Assembly: GCF_017643905.1 (NCBI RefSeq)
Contig: NZ_JAEPMO010000024.1
Location: forward strand, 1 to 36,045
Length of the DNA stretch: 36,045 bases
From: Marivita sp.
GTDB taxonomy: Bacteria > Pseudomonadota > Alphaproteobacteria > Rhodobacterales > Rhodobacteraceae
Direction of reading: 5' to 3'
Both the position numbers and the translations under genes were made by a program. Each line of letters opens with the position of its first letter. The first letter of the stretch is position 1. This document shows, piece by piece, positions 26,029 through 36,045 of this stretch. The notes beneath the pieces were generated by a model, which saw nothing but the letters and a program-made list of their open reading frames with translations, did not search any database and had not been told where the DNA came from.

Positions 26029-26355
26029 CTAAGGAAACAGTTTTTTAAAATGTGGCTCCGTAAAAAAGTAGTCGTGCCAGCGCCTCAAGGACGAAGGATG
26101 AACCGGAGGGCGGTGCTGGAAGAAAGTCCCGCCTGTGAAGAAATGAAAATATAGGCTCTCCACCCAGCGGTCGATCAGGGCCTCATCGGACAGGCCATGC
26201 AGATACTGCAAGTACATCAGCCCTGCTACCAATCGCGGGGGTATGGCTGGTCGCCCCGTCGTCGTCGAAAAGAACCTGGCCCATTCCTGACCTGAGGATA
26301 AACCACACCGTTTGATGAACTGCAAAACGGCTAAAGCAAGTGTATTTCGGCGCAC
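26029..26355 (-). pseudogene. Truncated IS5-family-type transposase N-terminus
   Basis: GRPAIPPRLVAGLMYLQYLHGLSDEALIDRWVESLYFHFFTGGTFFQHRPPVHPSSLRRWHDYF, then stop; no catalytic domain present. Confidence 0.85.
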
Positions 26356-26361
26356 ACGTCA

Positions 26362-26520
26362 TCACTTCTCAAGCCGATACGGCTCACAATATTCTCGTCG
26401 ACATTCAAATGCGAGTTTACCTAATTCGAAAACAGGTTTTAAATCCAGCTCGGGTTCCACGGTAGCACTGGACTGCTTCAGGCACGCAATGACTTCGCGA
26501 ATGACAGCAGCACGGTTCAT
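26362..26520 (-). CDS. Short hypothetical ORF (52 aa) upstream of the transposase fragment
   Basis: Hand translation: MNRAAVIREVIACLKQSSATVEPELDLKPVFELGKLAFECRREYCEPYRLEK*. Below the ORF-track length cut-off. Confidence 0.3.
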   Translation of the reverse strand: MNRAAVIREVIACLKQSSATVEPELDLKPVFELGKLAFECRREYCEPYRLEK

Positions 26521-26705
26521 TGTAAATAAGACTTCGTAGCCAGAAAACCACCTACGGCTTCCCGTAAATCAAGCAAAATTTGTTCGTTGGGTGAAACGCT
26601 GGAAACCAAGGGATAGCGCGATTGAGGCAAGATGCATGAGAGAAAGGACACCATAATCGCGGCCTGCAAGCTTCGGACAAGGCAACTGCCTGCTCAATCA
26701 TGTCT

Positions 26706-26879
26706 TCACCCTCCGAAGCCGACCAAGAACGCGAGAAACCCCAAAAAGGCGAGCGCCACAAGCGCCGAAAAGTTGAGGAATAAACGGCTGGTGAGGATGC
26801 GGAACAGAAGAACAAGCAGCCCTATCGCAACCATGCCGGCTAAGATGAGAAAGAGCAGTCCTGCGACAATCTCCGACAC
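26706..26879 (-). CDS. 57-aa predicted two-TM membrane protein (GTG start), last gene of the exonuclease-HEPN operon
   Basis: Hand translation: (V/M)SEIVAGLLFLILAGMVAIGLLVLLFRILTSRLFLNFSALVALAFLGFLAFLVGFGG*. GGGGA 6 nt upstream of the GTG; starts 12 nt after the HEPN gene stop. Confidence 0.6.
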   Translation of the reverse strand: MSEIVAGLLFLILAGMVAIGLLVLLFRILTSRLFLNFSALVALAFLGFLAFLVGFGG

Positions 26880-26891
26880 CTGGCGTCCCCA

Positions 26892-27569
26892 TCAATCCAC
26901 AACGGGATAATAAGGCGCACCCCAATCTTCGTTTGGGTTCGACATCATCGTGTCGACAAAGACGGGCAGAAGGCTCAGCAGCAACTCTGCCCCATTACGC
27001 ACCTGTTTACGGTTTACCTGACTGTTCCAGGTTGCGCCACCATGCACAAGCTGGTTGCGCAGTACATAGAGCCTGTCGAAGAGAATGCTCATCAGCTTCG
27101 CGGTCTCCTGCCCCTCGATCGCATATTGCGCGGCCTTCTTGGCGTTCTCGAAGCGCAGTTCCCAGTTGCCATACTGGGCATCGCCATTGTGGAATTTCCA
27201 GAACGGGCTGAAGATGTATTTGTTGTCCAGAAGCTCGGCCACCACCCCTTCGAAGTGGTGCCAGATTTCATGACCGATACGACCTTTTGGGTCGCACAGC
27301 ACAAGCGCGTCGAAGAAGTTCTGAAAATCTGCGCGCGCGAATGACCCTGGATCATCCCCCAAGTCCTTCGCGTAGGCGGCGTTGAAGGCAATCCAGCTGA
27401 AGATGAACGCGGCGTCAGGGTCTTCATCGATCAATGCTGCCGCCCGGGCGATCCAACTGATGGACCGGTGCGTGCGCAGGTTCAGCTCCGGGGAATTCTG
27501 TTCGCGCAACTGCCGGTGCTTGTCCCGCAAGTAATCGAATTCGTTCGATACCTCTGCCATCACGCTCAT
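26892..27569 (-). CDS. HEPN-domain protein (putative RNase)
   Basis: 225 aa, helical; RNQLVHGG near the C-terminus matches the HEPN Rx4-6H motif; ATGA overlap with the upstream gene. Confidence 0.7.
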   Translation of the reverse strand: MSVMAEVSNEFDYLRDKHRQLREQNSPELNLRTHRSISWIARAAALIDEDPDAAFIFSWIAFNAAYAKDLGDDPGSFARADFQNFFDALVLCDPKGRIGHEIWHHFEGVVAELLDNKYIFSPFWKFHNGDAQYGNWELRFENAKKAAQYAIEGQETAKLMSILFDRLYVLRNQLVHGGATWNSQVNRKQVRNGAELLLSLLPVFVDTMMSNPNEDWGAPYYPVVD

Positions 27570-28021
27570 GCTCCCAGTCTACGCGCAATGGCATTTCCGA
27601 GGCGCGACGTGATCAGCGCCCAGACGGTACCGCCGCCCGTGCCCGCGCCACCGTCACCCCAACGTTCACTTCTCATGGCATAATGCAGGATCCTTCGCAG
27701 GTCGCGCAGGCAGAGAGACTCGACAAGCTCGAGATTGTTCACGAGCTTTCGCATGAACTCTAGCACCGGCGTTTTTTTCGGGTCCCCCATGTCCTCCCCC
27801 TCATCGCGGCAGACAAAGCCACAGGAATGGGCCGCATTCATGAAGACGGACCATTCAGCCCAATAGATCGGTCGAAGCCGCTCTTCGCGCGAAGCACTTT
27901 CATACCGGTCCACCAAATCCCGCAAGCGCGCCCCAACGAACCGCACCTGTTGGATGGTCAGCTTTTCTTGAAGACTGAACGGAGCATCACGAATATCAGG
28001 ATCATTTTCCAGTGCTCGCAT
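27566..28021 (-). CDS. Conserved-looking hypothetical protein, helical, within the exonuclease-HEPN operon
   Basis: 151 aa from ATG 28021 (MRALENDPDIRDAPFSLQEKL...); 2 nt after the exonuclease stop (TGAAGATG); overlaps the HEPN gene by 4 nt. Confidence 0.75.
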   Translation of the reverse strand: MRALENDPDIRDAPFSLQEKLTIQQVRFVGARLRDLVDRYESASREERLRPIYWAEWSVFMNAAHSCGFVCRDEGEDMGDPKKTPVLEFMRKLVNNLELVESLCLRDLRRILHYAMRSERWGDGGAGTGGGTVWALITSRLGNAIARRLGA

Positions 28022-28023
28022 CT

Positions 28024-29412
28024 TCAGAACGGCTCCCCACATGTGATGCTGGACCCTAGCGCAACTATGAATGCTTCGATTTCTTCAAGCATGGAGGGAT
28101 CCTGCGATTCTGCTACTTGCAGCTCCAAGAGCGCCTGGCGCGCATGCTCAAACGTCATCCATCCAGCCCCGGTGTCTGCGCTCCATCGCTCGCTTCGCCA
28201 CGCAATGTACCGGCGATGGTCACTGTCTGACAGCAGGTTGGGCGCGTAGAATGCGACAAGCCTCGCACCAAGCTGGCGCAAGCGGGCGTCTTCGAACGTT
28301 GCTACGATTTCTTGCCGACGCGGCCAATCAGCCCCCTGAAACTCCTTGAGCCGTGCCTTGTCGTTCCAGCTGTAGAAGCCGTTGAAAATCTGCTGTTCGA
28401 CATGCCGTGGCGTAGCGTCGGGTTCGGCTGGGTAACGCGTGGCCATCGCAGAGATCAGCCGCTGCCGTAATTCGGGCCCCTCTGCGAGCGCCCGGGCCCT
28501 GCGCTGATACTCATCCGTCAAGGTCAGCGGTGGTAAGAGCACCGGGATCTTGTTGATCGAGATCGACCGCAGGAGACGTGGCTCAGCGTCCCTGGCGGCC
28601 ATCAAGTCCTGGTCAGACGCCATAATCAACGCTTGCGGGTCCATCGCATCGAGATCGAAGAGATAGGCTTGGTTCTGGTTCTTGGCGGCATAGCCGCAGA
28701 GGCAACCCATGATTGCCTTTGAGGGAGCGTCTCCAAAGCGCCCAATCAACTCGATTGGCTCATACCGGTCCAGCTGCACCTGAACATGTCTTTTGTCGCG
28801 ATTGGCAAGAAGCTGGCCCCAGAGATCGGGCGCACGCTCTGCGATCAGCCGTGCGATGTGGATCGTCGCCTCCACGTCCCCCAAAGCATCATGTGCGTTG
28901 TGCCCCTTAAAACCATTCTCCGGTGCAAGGCGATCGAGCTTGAAGCGGACCCGACCTGTGTCATCCATTGGCCAGGTGAATTGGTCGGGGTGGCGCTGAA
29001 ACATCGCGAATACGGCCGTCATGATGTCGAAGCGCGTGTTGCCATTGAACTGGGTTGCAAAAATCTCAGCCTGCAGATTCTGATAGAATAGCTGGCGCAA
29101 CATTTCTTCATCAAAACGGATGCTGTTGAACCCCGTCCAGATCGCAGGGGACCAACGTGAGACCAGCGCAATCAACTTCTGTGCGAACTCAAACAAGCTC
29201 GGCAACTGTGGATCGACGATTTGAAGGGGTCGCAACCCAGTGACGACTAACGCCTGCGGCGATGGAATGACGTGCGGTGCCAGGCGGCAGCGCAGGTTCA
29301 CCCGCTCGATCTCCTTGAAGTTCAAGTCTGTAAGGATCGCTGCAAATTGCAGAGGATGGTCGAACGCTGTCGACGTGCCCGTGGTTTCAAGATCGTAAAA
29401 CGCAAAGTTCAT
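28024..29412 (-). CDS. Exodeoxyribonuclease I-like (SbcB-like) DEDDh 3'-5' exonuclease
   Basis: 462 aa from ATG 29412; FYDLETTGTS, GFNSIRFDEEMLRQLFYQNL, GHNAHDALGDVEATIHIARLI; ExoI-like C-terminal region (QIFNGFYSWNDKARLKEFQ). Confidence 0.9.
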   Translation of the reverse strand: MNFAFYDLETTGTSTAFDHPLQFAAILTDLNFKEIERVNLRCRLAPHVIPSPQALVVTGLRPLQIVDPQLPSLFEFAQKLIALVSRWSPAIWTGFNSIRFDEEMLRQLFYQNLQAEIFATQFNGNTRFDIMTAVFAMFQRHPDQFTWPMDDTGRVRFKLDRLAPENGFKGHNAHDALGDVEATIHIARLIAERAPDLWGQLLANRDKRHVQVQLDRYEPIELIGRFGDAPSKAIMGCLCGYAAKNQNQAYLFDLDAMDPQALIMASDQDLMAARDAEPRLLRSISINKIPVLLPPLTLTDEYQRRARALAEGPELRQRLISAMATRYPAEPDATPRHVEQQIFNGFYSWNDKARLKEFQGADWPRRQEIVATFEDARLRQLGARLVAFYAPNLLSDSDHRRYIAWRSERWSADTGAGWMTFEHARQALLELQVAESQDPSMLEEIEAFIVALGSSITCGEPF

Positions 29413-29474
29413 AAGGGTACATAAGCGGAACAAGCAATCAGGTCACGAGGTTTTCCGGGTCAGGTAACCGGAGT

Positions 29475-29499
29475 ACGTCCGTATTTGACATACGCACGT
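29475..29499. promoter_or_regulatory. Inverted repeat in the divergent promoter region; candidate operator
   Basis: ACGTCCGTAT-TTGAC-ATACGCACGT, 9/10 arm match, overlapping a TTGACA hexamer. Confidence 0.5.
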
Positions 29500-29530
29500 G
29501 ATATGTCTTGCGGATCATCAAGGAGGCCGC

Positions 29531-31567
29531 ATGAAAAACAAGTACGAACAGGCATATTTAATCGAATTAGCAACACGAATTGCCTTACAATTTCGCGCAA
29601 GAAGCATTGCCGCACAAGAATTGTCAAACTGGATGGAAAATTTCGATTTAGGTTTCGACTGGAATCCCGATTTTGACACTTACAAACAAAAAGGTGTTCC
29701 AGCGGATATTTGGAGTCAACTACGGGGCCTCCTAACTGAGCTGGACAGAACAAAGTTTGAACCAAAACCGGATGCACTTGGTCGCAACATTAACGTTCTG
29801 GCCACTCATGTTGCTTTGAATTCCGATGAACAGGTAATTTTCGAACTGGCCGTTCGCGCAACACGCAATGGCCCTGTCCGGTCGTTGTGCACCGGTCTTG
29901 TCGACGACGCTCGGCTTTCGGTGGAGGATGCAATTACAAGTCTTACGGGCCTTCCATCCGCAAGCGTTCGCCGGTCCCTATCATACTCCGGTCGCTTGTT
30001 ATCTTCGGGTCTAGTGCAATTCGAAAAGCACCCTTTTCATGGGCTTGGACTTGCTCCGCTGAATCTCATTGTAGAAGCCCTCGAACCCCCTTCGCGCAGT
30101 CTGGACGATATCCTGAGCAAACTATTCGCCCCTGTCAGCTCCACGACGTTAGCCTGGGAGGATTTCGAGCATCTTGGCGCTGGGCGCGACTTTGCCTTCC
30201 GCCTGCTGCGCGGTGCTCTTGATCGCTGCGAAAAGGGCGTGAACATTCTGCTACACGGAGCCCCCGGGACCGGCAAAACGGAGTTCTGCAAGGCGCTTGC
30301 AGAGCGCCTCGGTGCGGGATTGCATGCTGTCGGTGAGGCTGATGATGAGGGCGACGAACCATCCCGTTCCGAACGTCTGCAGCAATTGCGTCTCGGTCAA
30401 CGGCTGCTTACTGATCAGGGAAACAGCCTGATCCTCTTCGACGAAATGGAAGACCTGTTTCCCGGGCTCGACAATGGCCCCTTTGGTCTGTCGCTCCGCC
30501 GCTCCGGCTCGAAAGTCCACGTCAACAGGCTATTAGAAAACAACCCAATCCCAACATCGTGGACGACCAACAACATCAGGGACTGCGATCCAGCATTCCT
30601 CCGACGGATTTCCTTCACGCTGGAGTTGCGCACACCACCAGTTTCTGTGCGCAGCCACATATGGGAGAAGCTTGCCAAGCATCACCGGGTTGCGCTGCCC
30701 AAAGACCTCTGCCTCGAACTCGCCCAAAGCATGGAAGATGCGCCTGCACTTGCCGATAGCGCACTTCGCGCAGCGCGAATTACATGCGGTGGCGCGGACG
30801 ATGTGAAGCTTGCGGCATCTGCGATTTCGCGTGCCGTGCGAGGGGGGCACACCCCACTCGTAGCACCGAGCAGTGTCAGATTTGAGCCTGAACTGGCCAA
30901 TGCTGACCATGACCTTGCACTGATCACAGAAAGGTTCGTGGCCTGCGGTCCAGCCAATACCGGTGGGCTGTGCCTCAGCGGCCCTCCCGGCACCGGCAAA
31001 AGCGCCTTTGCCCGCTATCTCGCAGACCGAATGCAGATGCCGGTCCTCGAGCGACGAGCTTCTGATCTTCTGGATCGCTATGTCGGCGGAAGCGAGCGCA
31101 ACATCGCCGATGCTTTTGCCGAAGCGCGCGACACCAACGCGTTTCTTGTATTCGATGAAGCGGACTCACTATTGGGCGCGCGCGATGGCTCAAGGCATCG
31201 CTGGGAAATCTCGCAGGTCAACGAAATGCTGACTTGGATGGAAAACCATCCCCTGCCCTTCGCCTGTACCACCAACCTCATCGAACATCTGGATCCCGCC
31301 ACGACCCGACGCTTCAGCCTCAAGATCAGCTTCTTGCCGCTGAGCGCACAGCAACGTGAAGCGTGTTTTTGTCGCTTTTTCAAATCCGATCCGCCCTTGG
31401 GGCTTTGGGAACTCGACCAACTGACGCCCGGGGACTTCGCTGTGGTGGCCAAGCGATCGAAATTGCTTGGGATCCCTGAACCCGAAGCGATCCTCGTCGA
31501 GCTGCGCCGCGAGCAGGCAGCCAAGCCTAATAGGGGGAGCCCGATAGGGTTTCGTGTTGCAAGCTGA
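29531..31567 (+). CDS. Double AAA+ domain ATPase
   Basis: 678 aa from ATG 29531 with AAGGAGG upstream. Two Walker A (LLHGAPGTGKTEF; LSGPPGTGKSAF) and two Walker B (LILFDEMEDLF; FLVFDEADSLL). Confidence 0.93.
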   Translation: MKNKYEQAYLIELATRIALQFRARSIAAQELSNWMENFDLGFDWNPDFDTYKQKGVPADIWSQLRGLLTELDRTKFEPKPDALGRNINVLATHVALNSDEQVIFELAVRATRNGPVRSLCTGLVDDARLSVEDAITSLTGLPSASVRRSLSYSGRLLSSGLVQFEKHPFHGLGLAPLNLIVEALEPPSRSLDDILSKLFAPVSSTTLAWEDFEHLGAGRDFAFRLLRGALDRCEKGVNILLHGAPGTGKTEFCKALAERLGAGLHAVGEADDEGDEPSRSERLQQLRLGQRLLTDQGNSLILFDEMEDLFPGLDNGPFGLSLRRSGSKVHVNRLLENNPIPTSWTTNNIRDCDPAFLRRISFTLELRTPPVSVRSHIWEKLAKHHRVALPKDLCLELAQSMEDAPALADSALRAARITCGGADDVKLAASAISRAVRGGHTPLVAPSSVRFEPELANADHDLALITERFVACGPANTGGLCLSGPPGTGKSAFARYLADRMQMPVLERRASDLLDRYVGGSERNIADAFAEARDTNAFLVFDEADSLLGARDGSRHRWEISQVNEMLTWMENHPLPFACTTNLIEHLDPATTRRFSLKISFLPLSAQQREACFCRFFKSDPPLGLWELDQLTPGDFAVVAKRSKLLGIPEPEAILVELRREQAAKPNRGSPIGFRVAS

Positions 31568-31675
31568 TCGCACGTCTCCTTACGACACCACGACAGCGCA
31601 CGAAAACGCATGTCAATGGCTCTGCTTGAAGCCATGAAATGTTTGCGCCAGTCTACGGGAATTGGAGACACCACA

Positions 31676-32665
31676 ATGCGTTATGGCCGACTCACAGATC
31701 TTGTTAGGCTGGCCATGCAGATGCAGGGCCGCGCCGATGGTCTGTCGCTGGAAGACATCAGTCAGACCTTTGAAGTGTCGCGCAGGACGGCTGAGCGGAT
31801 GCGCGATGCAATTCGTGACGCATTTCCGCAAACGGAGGAACTTTTAGAGGAAGGCGGGCGGAAGCGTTGGCGCTTGCCGCCTGGCACCGCAGGCCGCCTT
31901 GCCGACCCGACTGTAGATGATATCGCCACACTTAAGCGGGCCGCCGACCTCGCTCGACAATCGGGCGACTTTGGCACCGCTGAGCGCCTCGACATGCTAT
32001 CAGACCGGTTGCGTGCTCGCCTACCAGGCAAAAGACGAGCACAGCTTGAGCCTGATATCGCCGCACTCCTCGAGGCAGACGGCGTTGCCCTACGCCCTGG
32101 TCCCCGCGAGCGCATTCCGAGGGAAACACTGAACACTCTTCGAGAAGCAATCCTTGCGGGAGTTTGGATCGACGTTGATCATAGGTCTCGCTCATCTGGG
32201 CTTTTGAGCCGCAAAGCCCGTCTCGGTCCCCTTGCCATGCTGCTTGGTGAGGGCAGGCAGTACCTTGTGGCCTTCAGCGCCTACGCGAAGGATGTGCGTC
32301 TCTTTGCGTTGGCCGGATTCGAGCGGATCGAACTGACCGAAGATGTTTTTCAGCGCCCCGAAGATTTCGACCTATCCACCTGGATGCAGCGATCCTTCGG
32401 CATCTGGCAGGAAGATGTCTACGATGTCGTTTGGCGCTTCACGCCCGAAGCGGCAAAGGACGCGCGCCTATATTTGTTCCATCCGACACAGGTCATGACC
32501 GACGAGCCGGATGGCAGCCTTACAGTGTCATTCCGCGCAGGTGGGCTGCGCGAAATGTGCTGGCATTTGTTCCGGTGGGGAAGTTCCGTAAAGGTTGTTT
32601 CACCTCGCAAACTTCAAGAAGAACTTTCAAGGACAGTCAAAGATAACTACCCGGAGTACATCTGA
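31676..32665 (+). CDS. WYL-domain transcriptional regulator (HTH + WYL-like)
   Basis: 329 aa from ATG 31676; HTH GLSLEDISQTFEVSRRTAERMRDAIRDAFP; WYL-like region (ARLGPLAMLLGEGRQYLVAF...VRLFALAGFERIELTEDVFQRPEDFDL). Confidence 0.88.
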   Translation: MRYGRLTDLVRLAMQMQGRADGLSLEDISQTFEVSRRTAERMRDAIRDAFPQTEELLEEGGRKRWRLPPGTAGRLADPTVDDIATLKRAADLARQSGDFGTAERLDMLSDRLRARLPGKRRAQLEPDIAALLEADGVALRPGPRERIPRETLNTLREAILAGVWIDVDHRSRSSGLLSRKARLGPLAMLLGEGRQYLVAFSAYAKDVRLFALAGFERIELTEDVFQRPEDFDLSTWMQRSFGIWQEDVYDVVWRFTPEAAKDARLYLFHPTQVMTDEPDGSLTVSFRAGGLREMCWHLFRWGSSVKVVSPRKLQEELSRTVKDNYPEYI

Positions 32666-32728: not shown

Positions 32729-33391
32729 CTATGATGATTCCATTCCTGCCAGCCATTGGGGTATCTTCTTGTAACTTCTGTATATTCCCACAACAGTCGA
32801 AACGAAATTTTCAATCTCATCGTCCAAACTCATATTCTTCTTTGTTGAGCCAAACTCTTCAGCTTGAATCATCTTTCTAGCAATATCATTCCTTCTAACT
32901 GCATTGTCCAAATCAGCTTGTGGTGGAAATTCTTCATGTATACCACTTGCGCTCATGGCTTCCACTTTATCCCGAATGTGCTTTTTCGCGTCATCAAGCC
33001 CACGTCCAAAAATGCGCTGTTGAGGTAAGGAAGCCAATATTTCAAGCGCCAAGCGGCCGTCTTGTGCAGTTGGAAAATCTATCACTATTGCTCCCAGACT
33101 AACAGTATCAACTTCTTTTTCATTCTCATCAATATTTTCCAAAGCACGCTGCACACTAAATTTAGCTACAACTCCGTTCCCAGAATTTTGCCTCTTCACA
33201 TCTTCTACAATGTGACCAACATTGAGCTCTTCTGACAGACCCTCGTCATCCTTAATTGCATCTTCAAGTGCCTTGAGAAGTTCATCCCTCAATTCATTGC
33301 GGCGCTCCAACAAAACTTCAACAATTCGCCAATTGTTCCAAATTATCGACTCCACACTTTCGACCGCATTTATCTCGTTACTAGATGTCAT
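32729..33391 (-). CDS. Hypothetical protein in an AT-rich segment, downstream partner of the PD-(D/E)XK gene
   Basis: From ATG 33391 (MTSSNEINAVESVESIIWNNWRIVEVLLERRNELRDELLKAL...); overlaps the upstream gene end (33381) by 11 nt. Confidence 0.75.
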   Translation of the reverse strand: MTSSNEINAVESVESIIWNNWRIVEVLLERRNELRDELLKALEDAIKDDEGLSEELNVGHIVEDVKRQNSGNGVVAKFSVQRALENIDENEKEVDTVSLGAIVIDFPTAQDGRLALEILASLPQQRIFGRGLDDAKKHIRDKVEAMSASGIHEEFPPQADLDNAVRRNDIARKMIQAEEFGSTKKNMSLDDEIENFVSTVVGIYRSYKKIPQWLAGMESS

Positions 33392-34748
33392 GGATTCTCC
33401 CTCCAAGTTTCTCATAGACTGCTTCATCGCAACAGCTATCAACATGGTTCAGTTCTGCAAGTGCCACATCGAGGGACGCAGAAGATGCAACTGGAAACCG
33501 CCTAGTGAGTGCCGGTTCAGCTATTCTCAGCCTTAGATCTTCAATGTTAGACACCAAGTCTATACCAGTCGCCAAACGAAGAATTGTTGTTCTAAAAGAC
33601 CGAATCAAATCAAGTCGACCCAACTGCAGATCTCGATCAATACACAGACGATACAGCATCTTATCAATATCAAGCCAATCGATATGCCGCACTGGCAAAC
33701 CGTGCTCATATTTACGCTCACCCATATATTCATGCTTTGAGATGCACTGATGCCTTGGGTGAATCAGCACAGGAACCACAGCAGCCCTACCAGCATCAAA
33801 GAAATGTTTACTGCGCTCCAAGCCTTTATTTGCACGTGTGCATTTTTCCCATGCACCCCTCCAACCCTGAAAAGAAGAAAAATGCGATGATGATGTGTTT
33901 TTATCAAATCTCAAACTGCTTCTGTAGGCCTCAAGCATTAAACGCCACATTTCACCGTATAATGCTGCTTGCGCCCAAGTCTGATCATTAAATTTGTACA
34001 ATGACTCGCTAGCGTACACTTTAACTTCTACAGGAATAATGTAGCCTTGCACCATGATTAATATGTCGACGCGCAGTCTTCTAGACTTTTCAGATTTCTG
34101 TTGAGAAGTCTGCTCATATAAAGGCTGAAAAAGCTCACCATTGGGTATATCCCAACTTACCTCACTAACAATTTCAGCATTTAGGCTTTGAGAATAATCG
34201 AACAGACGACCCTGACAGTCCACGCCCAGGCGAGCAAGGAAAAGTCGTAGAAATGCATCTCCAACACCGTGTGAACTTTCAGGAGTTAATAGCCACAATA
34301 ACAACTGACAAAACACAGTTTCACTTCGGTCTACGCCCATCAGCGAAAGAATGTCGAAGTGTACCGGAAGGCCCTCGTATGGCTTGAGAACAGTTTCGGC
34401 TTCCCTTAAACGGTTCGCACTAGTTTCGCTATACAACAGAACTGTTTTATCAATAATAGCATGAAATTTTTTGATATCTTCCGCTGGTGAAGGAAAACCG
34501 ATCGCCCCATCTAAATATGATGCTTCTAATGAATCACCTTCTCCATTGATGACTTTTCGAGCCTCCTCAACGACCTTGACAACGCCATCCAAATACTTAT
34601 CAGTTTTTTCAAAAGCACTTGATGTAACTCGATGCGCAATCACAATGCTCGGATCAATTGCTACCCGCACATCACTAATAATAGAAAGTATGCGTTCGAT
34701 TTCTCCTTTAGAATCCATATCAATTGGTCTTTCATCTCTATTACACAT
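33381..34748 (-). CDS. PD-(D/E)XK nuclease superfamily protein (PDDEXK_4-like); start may be 34718
   Basis: 455 aa; FCQLLLWLLTPESSHGVGDAFLRLFL and RVDILIMVQGYIIPVEVKVYASESLYKFNDQTWAQAALYGEMW (D...ExK core). Confidence 0.82.
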   Translation of the reverse strand: MCNRDERPIDMDSKGEIERILSIISDVRVAIDPSIVIAHRVTSSAFEKTDKYLDGVVKVVEEARKVINGEGDSLEASYLDGAIGFPSPAEDIKKFHAIIDKTVLLYSETSANRLREAETVLKPYEGLPVHFDILSLMGVDRSETVFCQLLLWLLTPESSHGVGDAFLRLFLARLGVDCQGRLFDYSQSLNAEIVSEVSWDIPNGELFQPLYEQTSQQKSEKSRRLRVDILIMVQGYIIPVEVKVYASESLYKFNDQTWAQAALYGEMWRLMLEAYRSSLRFDKNTSSSHFSSFQGWRGAWEKCTRANKGLERSKHFFDAGRAAVVPVLIHPRHQCISKHEYMGERKYEHGLPVRHIDWLDIDKMLYRLCIDRDLQLGRLDLIRSFRTTILRLATGIDLVSNIEDLRLRIAEPALTRRFPVASSASLDVALAELNHVDSCCDEAVYEKLGGRIHDI

Positions 34749-34784: not shown

Positions 34785-35675
34785 TCATCGCTTCAGCACT
34801 TCAATATTATCATTAGACAATGATTTCTCCCCCACCCAATGATAAATGCAGATTTTTTCAGGGTAATCCAAACAAGCAGCTTGCTCAGACTCAATCAATG
34901 GCTCGCCTTTCATTTTGTAATGGCCCACTAGCACAGGAGATTTGCCTTCACCATAAACGGTAATTCCTTCTGTACCTGAAACAGACGTATCAGGCAACTG
35001 CGTAACATCTGGTACAGCGAGTGCCAAATCACGCCAACTTCCCTGCAATGATTTCCACCACGCAAGACGCACCTTATTCCGCTTCACACCTTTATAATCG
35101 TAGAACCAAAAATTATCTGGCAGCATAACCTCAGGACCTGACGTTAGCATCTCTACAGCCATAGCAAATTCACTTTCTTTGTGAGCTACCTCTTCAAGGT
35201 CATCAGCAGTAAGCCGCCCATCTGGTCGTCGCTCCTTCACCATTTCGATTGCAATCTGATCCCAGCAAGCATGCACAAGATTCAATCCTTCAAGTTCAAT
35301 CCAGAGTGGAATACTCAAAAACCATTCAGTCCATTCAATCGCGGAAGGTGTTGCGAAGCCTATATTGTCCAAGAAACTTGCATGCTGGCTGACGTTATTT
35401 GAGCTGTGCTGGCGCAGAGGTGCCCCTTTGTTATCTCTCCGGTGAAACAAAATAGCGTTGAGTTCATGGTTCCCCATGACTGCCAGAGCGCCCTCGTGGT
35501 CCACAAGTGATCGCACTTTGCGAAGTACGGAAGCATCATCAGGCACGTCGACAGAGTTGCCTGCATCAATAAAATCACCAAGAAAAGCAACATTCGATCC
35601 AGTTGCAGCATCCAGCGATGTATGCAAACGGGTAGGGTCCGCATGGATGTCTGGTATAATCGTTAAACTTGTCAT
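34785..35675 (-). CDS. Calcineurin-like (Ser/Thr phosphatase-type) metallophosphoesterase
   Basis: 296 aa; IIPDIHADPTRL, FLGDFIDAG, VMGNHELNAI, LVHACWD, VLVGHYKM. Confidence 0.9.
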   Translation of the reverse strand: MTSLTIIPDIHADPTRLHTSLDAATGSNVAFLGDFIDAGNSVDVPDDASVLRKVRSLVDHEGALAVMGNHELNAILFHRRDNKGAPLRQHSSNNVSQHASFLDNIGFATPSAIEWTEWFLSIPLWIELEGLNLVHACWDQIAIEMVKERRPDGRLTADDLEEVAHKESEFAMAVEMLTSGPEVMLPDNFWFYDYKGVKRNKVRLAWWKSLQGSWRDLALAVPDVTQLPDTSVSGTEGITVYGEGKSPVLVGHYKMKGEPLIESEQAACLDYPEKICIYHWVGEKSLSNDNIEVLKR

Positions 35676-35753: not shown

Positions 35754-36045
35754 TCAGTCAACTTGAGAGCTTCCATCCCTGATCTCAACCGTCGCCCGGT
35801 CGATCCAATGAACCGCAATTTCTGCGAACCTAACCTGTTCAGCGAGTGCAAACACTTGCTGATAGGCCTGAAGTTGCGCAAAGTATGCCTTGAAAGATCC
35901 CGATCCGCTCTTGTGATCAAGAATCAGACACTTCCCTTCGCCCGTCGCCAGAAGATCAATGATCCCGTTGAATTCCGCGCCCGATGCTTCACGCTTCTGA
36001 ACCGGCACCTCGCATTCGATCTCCGTATAGCCCTCAGCCGTCAGC
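35754..36045 (-). CDS. C-terminal nuclease domain of a larger protein (UvrD/RecB-type PD-(D/E)XK), truncated by the window end
   Basis: Frame open to the window edge: LTAEGYTEIECEVPVQKREASGAEFNGIIDLLATGEGKCLILDHKSGSGSFKAYFAQLQAYQQVFALAEQ (GIIDLL...ILDHKSG, Q..AYQ). Confidence 0.7.
   Translation of the reverse strand, partial: LTAEGYTEIECEVPVQKREASGAEFNGIIDLLATGEGKCLILDHKSGSGSFKAYFAQLQAYQQVFALAEQVRFAEIAVHWIDRATVEIRDGSSQVD

Follow-up and report, generated by a model that had tools for sequence, protein, structure and literature searches.

Do six tightly packed genes in a Marivita genome, among them genes for an exonuclease and a candidate RNase, form a defence system, and does that system have a counterpart among those already named? 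The window examined here is the whole 36,045-nucleotide stretch of contig NZ_JAEPMO010000024.1 of Marivita sp. (assembly GCF_017643905.1; Rhodobacteraceae), in which the six genes occupy positions 26706 to 32665. With a probability of about 50%, the sequence evidence points to a WYL-regulated, divergently transcribed defence cassette of abortive type, with a putative DNA arm (an ExoI-type exonuclease and a tandem AAA+ ATPase) and a putative RNase arm (a HEPN-like protein).

All six open reading frames (ORFs) proposed in a preliminary description of this DNA were confirmed in the window. On the minus strand, the ORF list gives the transcription order exoI (28024..29412, 462 aa), a 151-aa gene (27566..28021), hepn (26892..27569, 225 aa) and a 57-aa gene with a GTG start (26706..26879) for a predicted protein with two transmembrane segments. 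The operon is as tight as had been described: exoI is joined to the 151-aa gene as TGA-AG-ATG, the latter shares an ATGA overlap with hepn at 27566-27569, and 12 nt separate hepn from the 57-aa gene. The second protein had been given as 158 aa, a length that is incorrect because the ATG it requires lies inside exoI and contradicts the TGA-AG-ATG junction of the same description; the start at ATG 28021 gives 151 aa. On the plus strand, the tandem AAA+ gene (29531..31567, 678 aa) is followed by the gene of a WYL-WCX transcriptional regulator (31610..32665). Between the two arms lies a putative divergent promoter region of 118 bp (29413..29530), which is exact with the starts ATG 29412 for exoI and ATG 29531, supported by homologues, for the AAA+ gene. 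An upstream TTG would extend ExoI to 469 aa, and GTG 29498 is a possible alternative start of the AAA+ gene. In many searches the ExoI query covered 28024-29409 and thus lacked the ATG codon, with no effect on the results.

The same two-arm layout was found in Marivita lacus, Roseovarius gahaiensis, Sulfitobacter sediminilitoris, Yoonia sediminilitoris and Tateyamaria pelophila (locus L037, with a partial second copy, L035), which belong to five genera of marine alphaproteobacteria within the Rhodobacterales. A second copy is present in the same genome on contig C54, with ExoI, AAA+ and WYL proteins 80-82% identical to those of the window, its 151-aa gene reduced to the last 24 codons and its hepn frameshifted; this copy continues with further small genes of 158, 71 and 176 aa. 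The Sulfitobacter and Tateyamaria loci are intact except that they are without the 151-aa gene. With homology-supported starts, exoI and the AAA+ gene lie 118 bp apart in six of the seven module loci and 127 bp apart in the seventh. Purifying selection acts on every gene tested, with ratios of nonsynonymous to synonymous substitution rates (dN/dS) well below 1; between the window and M. lacus, HEPN evolves slowest (0.06) and the 151-aa gene fastest (0.37). Recurrence of the order in other genera, together with these dN/dS values, places the arrangement beyond chance. Pairwise identities of ExoI, HEPN and AAA+ proteins are also correlated (r 0.71-0.86).

The exonuclease carries the Exonuc_X-T_C (9.5e-21) and RNase_T (6.6e-11) domains, and its DEDDh residues D15, E17, D108, H181 and D186 (E. 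coli numbering) are kept in 32/32 ExoI homologues. The preliminary description was right about the DEDDh type, and its comparison with a normally stand-alone repair enzyme was not upheld. Against the PADLOC profile RTasSbcB the window protein scores 465 bits over its full length (7e-140), while the E. coli SbcB control reaches 177 bits, and it falls under the NCBIfam ExoI equivalog cut-off (235 vs 260 bits). By sequence, therefore, it is an accessory SbcB of the RTasSbcB type. In related genomes, its relatives adjoin Drt1a, MmeI, BREX genes and a UG6 reverse transcriptase (RT) accompanied by a nitrilase. Within the same bacterial family, exonucleases of the RTasSbcB type are neighbours of BREX (BrxA/B/C) loci and of DRT1 or UG6 RTs. 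The module ExoIs form a single clade (support 0.68), with BREX-adjacent ExoIs as its sister. No RT was found among the window proteins scanned from 26.7 to 36.0 kb.

For the HEPN-like protein, the motif RNQLVH (R171...H176) proposed earlier is well supported. R171, N172, Q173, H176, G177 and G178 are invariant across 45 homologues, and homologues are publicly annotated as "HEPN domain-containing". HEPN domains have been defined as all-helical, with an Rx4-6H motif, a polar residue after the arginine, and a position at the end of helix 3 or the start of the loop to helix 4 (PMC3710099). The window protein has this motif form and placement in its all-helical AlphaFold2 (AF2) model (pLDDT 88), where the motif ends helix 156-176 and is followed by loop 177-183 and helix 184-210. 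The N-terminal helical region is larger, with a conserved WIxFNAAYA. The Pfam family HEPN_RiboL-PSP matches 18 of the 45 homologues, with a best E of 0.0037. No PADLOC profile matched the protein, the HEPN_Apea family search across 61 genomes did not recover it, and the PDB, searched by sequence, offered no more than an ApeA chain at E=1.1, spanning the motif region. The HEPN assignment thus draws on the invariant RNxxxH, its placement in the predicted model, weak Pfam matches and the names of homologues, and is marginal by Pfam.

The plus-strand arm is as had been described. The AAA+ protein has an AAA domain (6e-34) and two Walker A motifs, GAPGTGKT at 254 and GPPGTGKS at 495 (689-aa numbering); both Walker A/B sets are kept in 32 homologues. 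It distantly resembles PADLOC IetA (1e-26) and scores 90 bits against an NCBIfam IteA cut-off of 510. The regulator matches WYL (1.7e-7) and WCX (4e-15), both over cut-off, and a helix-turn-helix (HTH) domain only by weak matches under cut-off. WYL proteins regulate defence loci (PMC4012209, PMC9122588). Conserved elements of the spacer include GTCAC, CGYCC...TGaC and the GGAGG Shine-Dalgarno sequence of the AAA+ gene. A palindromic candidate WYL operator, GACATA-N9-TATGTC, was rejected as a conserved element because it is confined to the window and M. lacus. An arm of regulator and ATPase and an arm of exonuclease and candidate RNase, set around one intergenic region, argue for coordinated, repressible expression.

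The two small proteins are less constant. Homologues of the 151-aa protein were found only in M. lacus, Roseovarius and Yoonia, and searches of plasmids and IMG/VR gave no relatives; weak matches in the 397-genome search were rejected as noise, mostly within long unrelated frames. A four-member profile aligned by hhalign with a DUF6508 protein of Croceicoccus marinus at 87% probability, and the gene of that protein lies 15 bp after a HEPN homologue. The Roseovarius homologue gave E=0.08 against PF20118 (13.2 bits vs a gathering score of 23.6), and the window protein itself had no PF20118 match. It is therefore probably a divergent DUF6508 protein by sequence, as a lead and not as a membership. 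The preliminary description had called it a helical unknown: the AF2 model is indeed helical (pLDDT 70) and found no significant match in a fold search, and the probable family and the absence of the gene from two otherwise intact loci are new. The gene is optional and fast-evolving. The 57-aa protein has homologues in the C54 copy (82% identity) and in Roseovarius (70%), with dN/dS of 0.18-0.24; among the module loci compared, its gene was found only in these two and the window.

How firmly the genes belong together across the family was assessed in samples of 394-397 genomes, with TM0106 counts from 199 genomes. The AAA+ protein is present in 11 genomes, ExoI in 30 and HEPN in 47. AAA+ and HEPN co-occur in 6/11 (p=0.0006, ~394 genomes). 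Of 12 AAA+ loci that were sampled independently of HEPN, 10 have a WYL gene nearby, and AAA+-WYL is the stable pair. The main partner of the HEPN family is a TM0106-type helicase-nuclease, with RNase_H_2 and UPF1-type helicase domains: TM0106 is present in 21/199 genomes, 20 of which also have HEPN, and 14 pairs lie within ~1.6 kb (p~4e-20, an approximate value because the HEPN denominator for those 199 genomes was inferred). Among 78 HEPN loci, gathered by HEPN itself, WYL is found in 44; in 49, one or more of TM0106, McrBC, SbcCD, AddAB-like or ExoI lie within six genes. The HEPN-WYL-TM0106 association may itself constitute a wider defence system; such loci often also carry a McrBC, SbcCD or TmtA-like gene.

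Several plasmids carry AAA+-WYL and, after it, a PTP-ADP-ribosylglycohydrolase, in some cases HEPN, a PD-(D/E)XK protein, UvrD, two unknowns and a helicase. This long, conserved AAA+-WYL-PTP/ADP-ribosylglycohydrolase-UvrD cluster was seen at six loci, that of Yoonia among them; its genes overlap, and its PADLOC matches (GajB, ZacB, DrmD, ZorD and others) are mostly partial. In Yoonia, the ExoI module is joined to the PTP-ADP-ribosylglycohydrolase/UvrD cluster. Because partners recombine, the Yoonia locus joins two clusters and the tail of a UvrD relative closes the window, the six genes are best regarded as a single composite within a modular array, not as an obligate six-gene system. The distribution is patchy and plasmid-associated, and neighbours include McrBC, BREX, DRT and TmtA.

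If the genes do act in defence, a two-armed mechanism can be proposed. The WYL protein would keep the shared promoter low and release it once a nucleic-acid signal betrays an infection. ExoI, as a 3'-5' exonuclease of single-stranded DNA (ssDNA), and the AAA+ protein, as a remodeller, would then attack the ends of invader DNA. The HEPN RNase would serve as a second arm, with RNA cleavage stopping the cell if the DNA attack fails or ExoI is saturated or inhibited, and the DUF6508-like protein might tune HEPN or its trigger. For HEPN proteins next to DNA-targeting systems, a role as suicide effectors of last resort has been proposed (PMC3710099, PMC12839542). That DNA processing might be coupled to an abortive RNase, as the preliminary description had suggested, is plausible. 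Defence is favoured because the gene order is kept in five genera and a decayed paralogue, with a fixed 118-bp spacer and purifying selection; because the ExoI active site is intact in an SbcB family that adjoins DRT1, UG6 RT and BREX; because the HEPN motif is invariant and well placed and the family is linked to WYL, helicase-nucleases and TM0106; and because the distribution is patchy and plasmid-associated and WYL proteins are known defence regulators. Several points weigh against this defence cassette. The order of its events is one that we infer; the window HEPN-like protein reaches only 0.073 with HEPN_RiboL-PSP, below cut-off; and Foldseek, run with its model on the PDB, did not independently confirm the HEPN fold, since no HEPN entry matched and the best E, 0.67, was for non-HEPN proteins. 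Moreover, ExoI and HEPN co-occur no better than chance (4/30, p=0.49, ~394 genomes), a count that rules out an obligate pair; the two families do not go together outside the clade of the module, which is a clade-specific composite.

The same parts could be read differently. In an arrangement of guard and antidote, ssDNA or free 3' ends would trigger HEPN, directly or via the AAA+ protein, and ExoI would remove them, so that inhibition or overload of ExoI frees HEPN. Precedent comes from E. coli carrying DRT9, which needs sbcB for viability since ExoI removes toxic DNA (PMC12483538), and from E. coli H120, where sbcB is essential with a UG17-type RT system (PMC9122126). The RT-associated family of the window ExoI, the leading place of exoI in the HEPN operon and the repeated adjacency of the HEPN family to DNA-end processing nucleases are in keeping with such a role; however, the window has no RT among the scanned proteins and no known DNA product, and HEPN homologues elsewhere are without ExoI. 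We regard this arrangement, the main rival of the defence cassette, as possible on balance, though unlikely. A broader version, in which the HEPN family would supply a general guard RNase to machines that process DNA ends (TM0106-type Dna2-like helicase-nucleases, SbcCD, AddAB-like, ExoI) and RTasSbcB proteins would be portable antidotes that silence DNA-triggered effectors (DRT, HEPN), the two being joined in the window operon, is speculative and rather doubtful. That the 151-aa DUF6508-like protein and HEPN form a toxin-antitoxin pair, with ExoI and AAA+ as separate neighbours, would suit the ATGA overlap, the antitoxin-before-toxin order, the adjacency of DUF6508 and HEPN in Croceicoccus, the state of the C54 copy (151-aa gene deleted, HEPN frameshifted) and the rapid divergence of the 151-aa protein (dN/dS 0.37 vs 0.06 for HEPN). 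Such a role is weakened because Sulfitobacter and Tateyamaria keep an intact HEPN without the 151-aa gene; most HEPN homologues also have no such partner, the C54 frameshift could be an error of the draft assembly, and the pair is judged improbable.

About as improbable is a cassette for DNA repair or plasmid maintenance, built of ExoI, AAA+ and AddAB-like proteins, in which the HEPN-like protein would be a non-catalytic helical partner. Classical recombination enzymes include ExoI and the AddAB type, the genes are carried on plasmids, and Foldseek returned no HEPN match, yet such a cassette sits poorly with the patchy presence (AAA+ in 11/397 genomes, ExoI in 30/397), with WYL regulators and an invariant RNxxxH, and with restriction and defence neighbours such as McrBC, BREX, DRT and TmtA. 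Free recombination of the components with other partners might even suggest unrelated neighbours in a defence island; this is disfavoured and very improbable, given that the same composite, order and 118-bp spacer recur in several genera and that the distances of ExoI, HEPN and AAA+ proteins are correlated as noted above.

The defence cassette proposed here consists of parts that are each of a known kind, and the combination matches no named PADLOC system, as the preliminary description had supposed. PADLOC, Pfam and NCBIfam held no entry that names the six-gene combination, and a literature search on ExoI+HEPN+WYL, DUF6508 and TM0106+HEPN, with most subscription papers outside its scope, found no description of it. 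Class 1 DRT systems with an accessory SbcB (RTasSbcB; DRT1, UG6) share the exonuclease family; the RT or nitrilase of those systems is absent from the window scan, and HEPN, AAA+ and WYL are present instead. In CoCoNuT or McrBC-HEPN-UPF1-like systems (PMC11090510), a HEPN effector is likewise found with nucleases and helicases, and the wider HEPN family described here adjoins McrBC and the UPF1/Dna2-like (TM0106) helicase-nuclease. The window HEPN, however, stands alone without the long winged HTH of CnuE, and neither McrBC nor a UPF1-like helicase belongs to the module. BREX loci with backup HEPN effectors and BrxR/WYL (PMC12839542) have WYL, AAA+ and HEPN in common with the module, and the sister ExoI clade flanks BREX, but no BrxC, PglZ, methylase or other core gene was found among the window proteins scanned. 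The HEPN superfamily RNases (PMC3710099) likewise carry RNxxxH where a long helix gives way to a loop, whereas the window protein is below the cut-off of every curated Pfam HEPN family. The AAA domain is similar to IetA of IetAS; the window protein is a tandem AAA+ far below cut-off, and no S8 protease (subtilisin IetS) was found among the neighbouring proteins scanned.

The module had been thought to end at 32.7 kb; instead, the locus runs on into an AddAB-like/metallophosphatase neighbourhood. A metallophosphatase gene (34785..35675, minus strand) belongs to a family recurrent in the neighbourhood, with homologues adjoining AAA+/HEPN/UvrD in M. lacus and at two other loci, and is an accessory gene probably of the same array. 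Next to it, the contig end cuts a minus-strand gene for an AddA-like UvrD helicase-nuclease (35754..36044, C-terminal 96 aa, PDDEXK_1 3e-7), whose tail is 66% identical to the UvrD tail of M. lacus. Contig C48 of the same genome carries PTP-ADP-ribosylglycohydrolase, PD-(D/E)XK 848-type and UvrD genes, the UvrD 94% identical to that of M. lacus, and is probably another fragment of the window array. Between the WYL and metallophosphatase genes, at 32729-34748, a gene for a PDDEXK_4 protein (455 aa, with weak PDC-S26 similarity in PADLOC) overlaps that of a 238-aa unknown; M. lacus is without this pair. Just downstream of the operon, a truncated transposase-like ORF of 108 aa (26029-26355, judged by eye) is likely an island boundary. 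At 26520-26700 lies what is probably a frameshifted remnant of the 158-aa gene found after the 57-aa gene in C54, which suggests that the window operon lost its 3' end. An Rfam search of 24-36 kb gave no match.

If defensive, the locus would represent a compact, unnamed system in which degradation of ssDNA 3' ends is coupled to an RNA-cleaving suicide arm. It also offers a second test case, this time without an RT, for whether accessory ExoI genes act as antidotes or as weapons in bacterial immunity, a question that arose from the dependence of DRT9 on sbcB. The association of HEPN with WYL and TM0106, seen in 20/21 genomes, points to a wider family and is perhaps a more interesting lead than the six-gene cassette itself.

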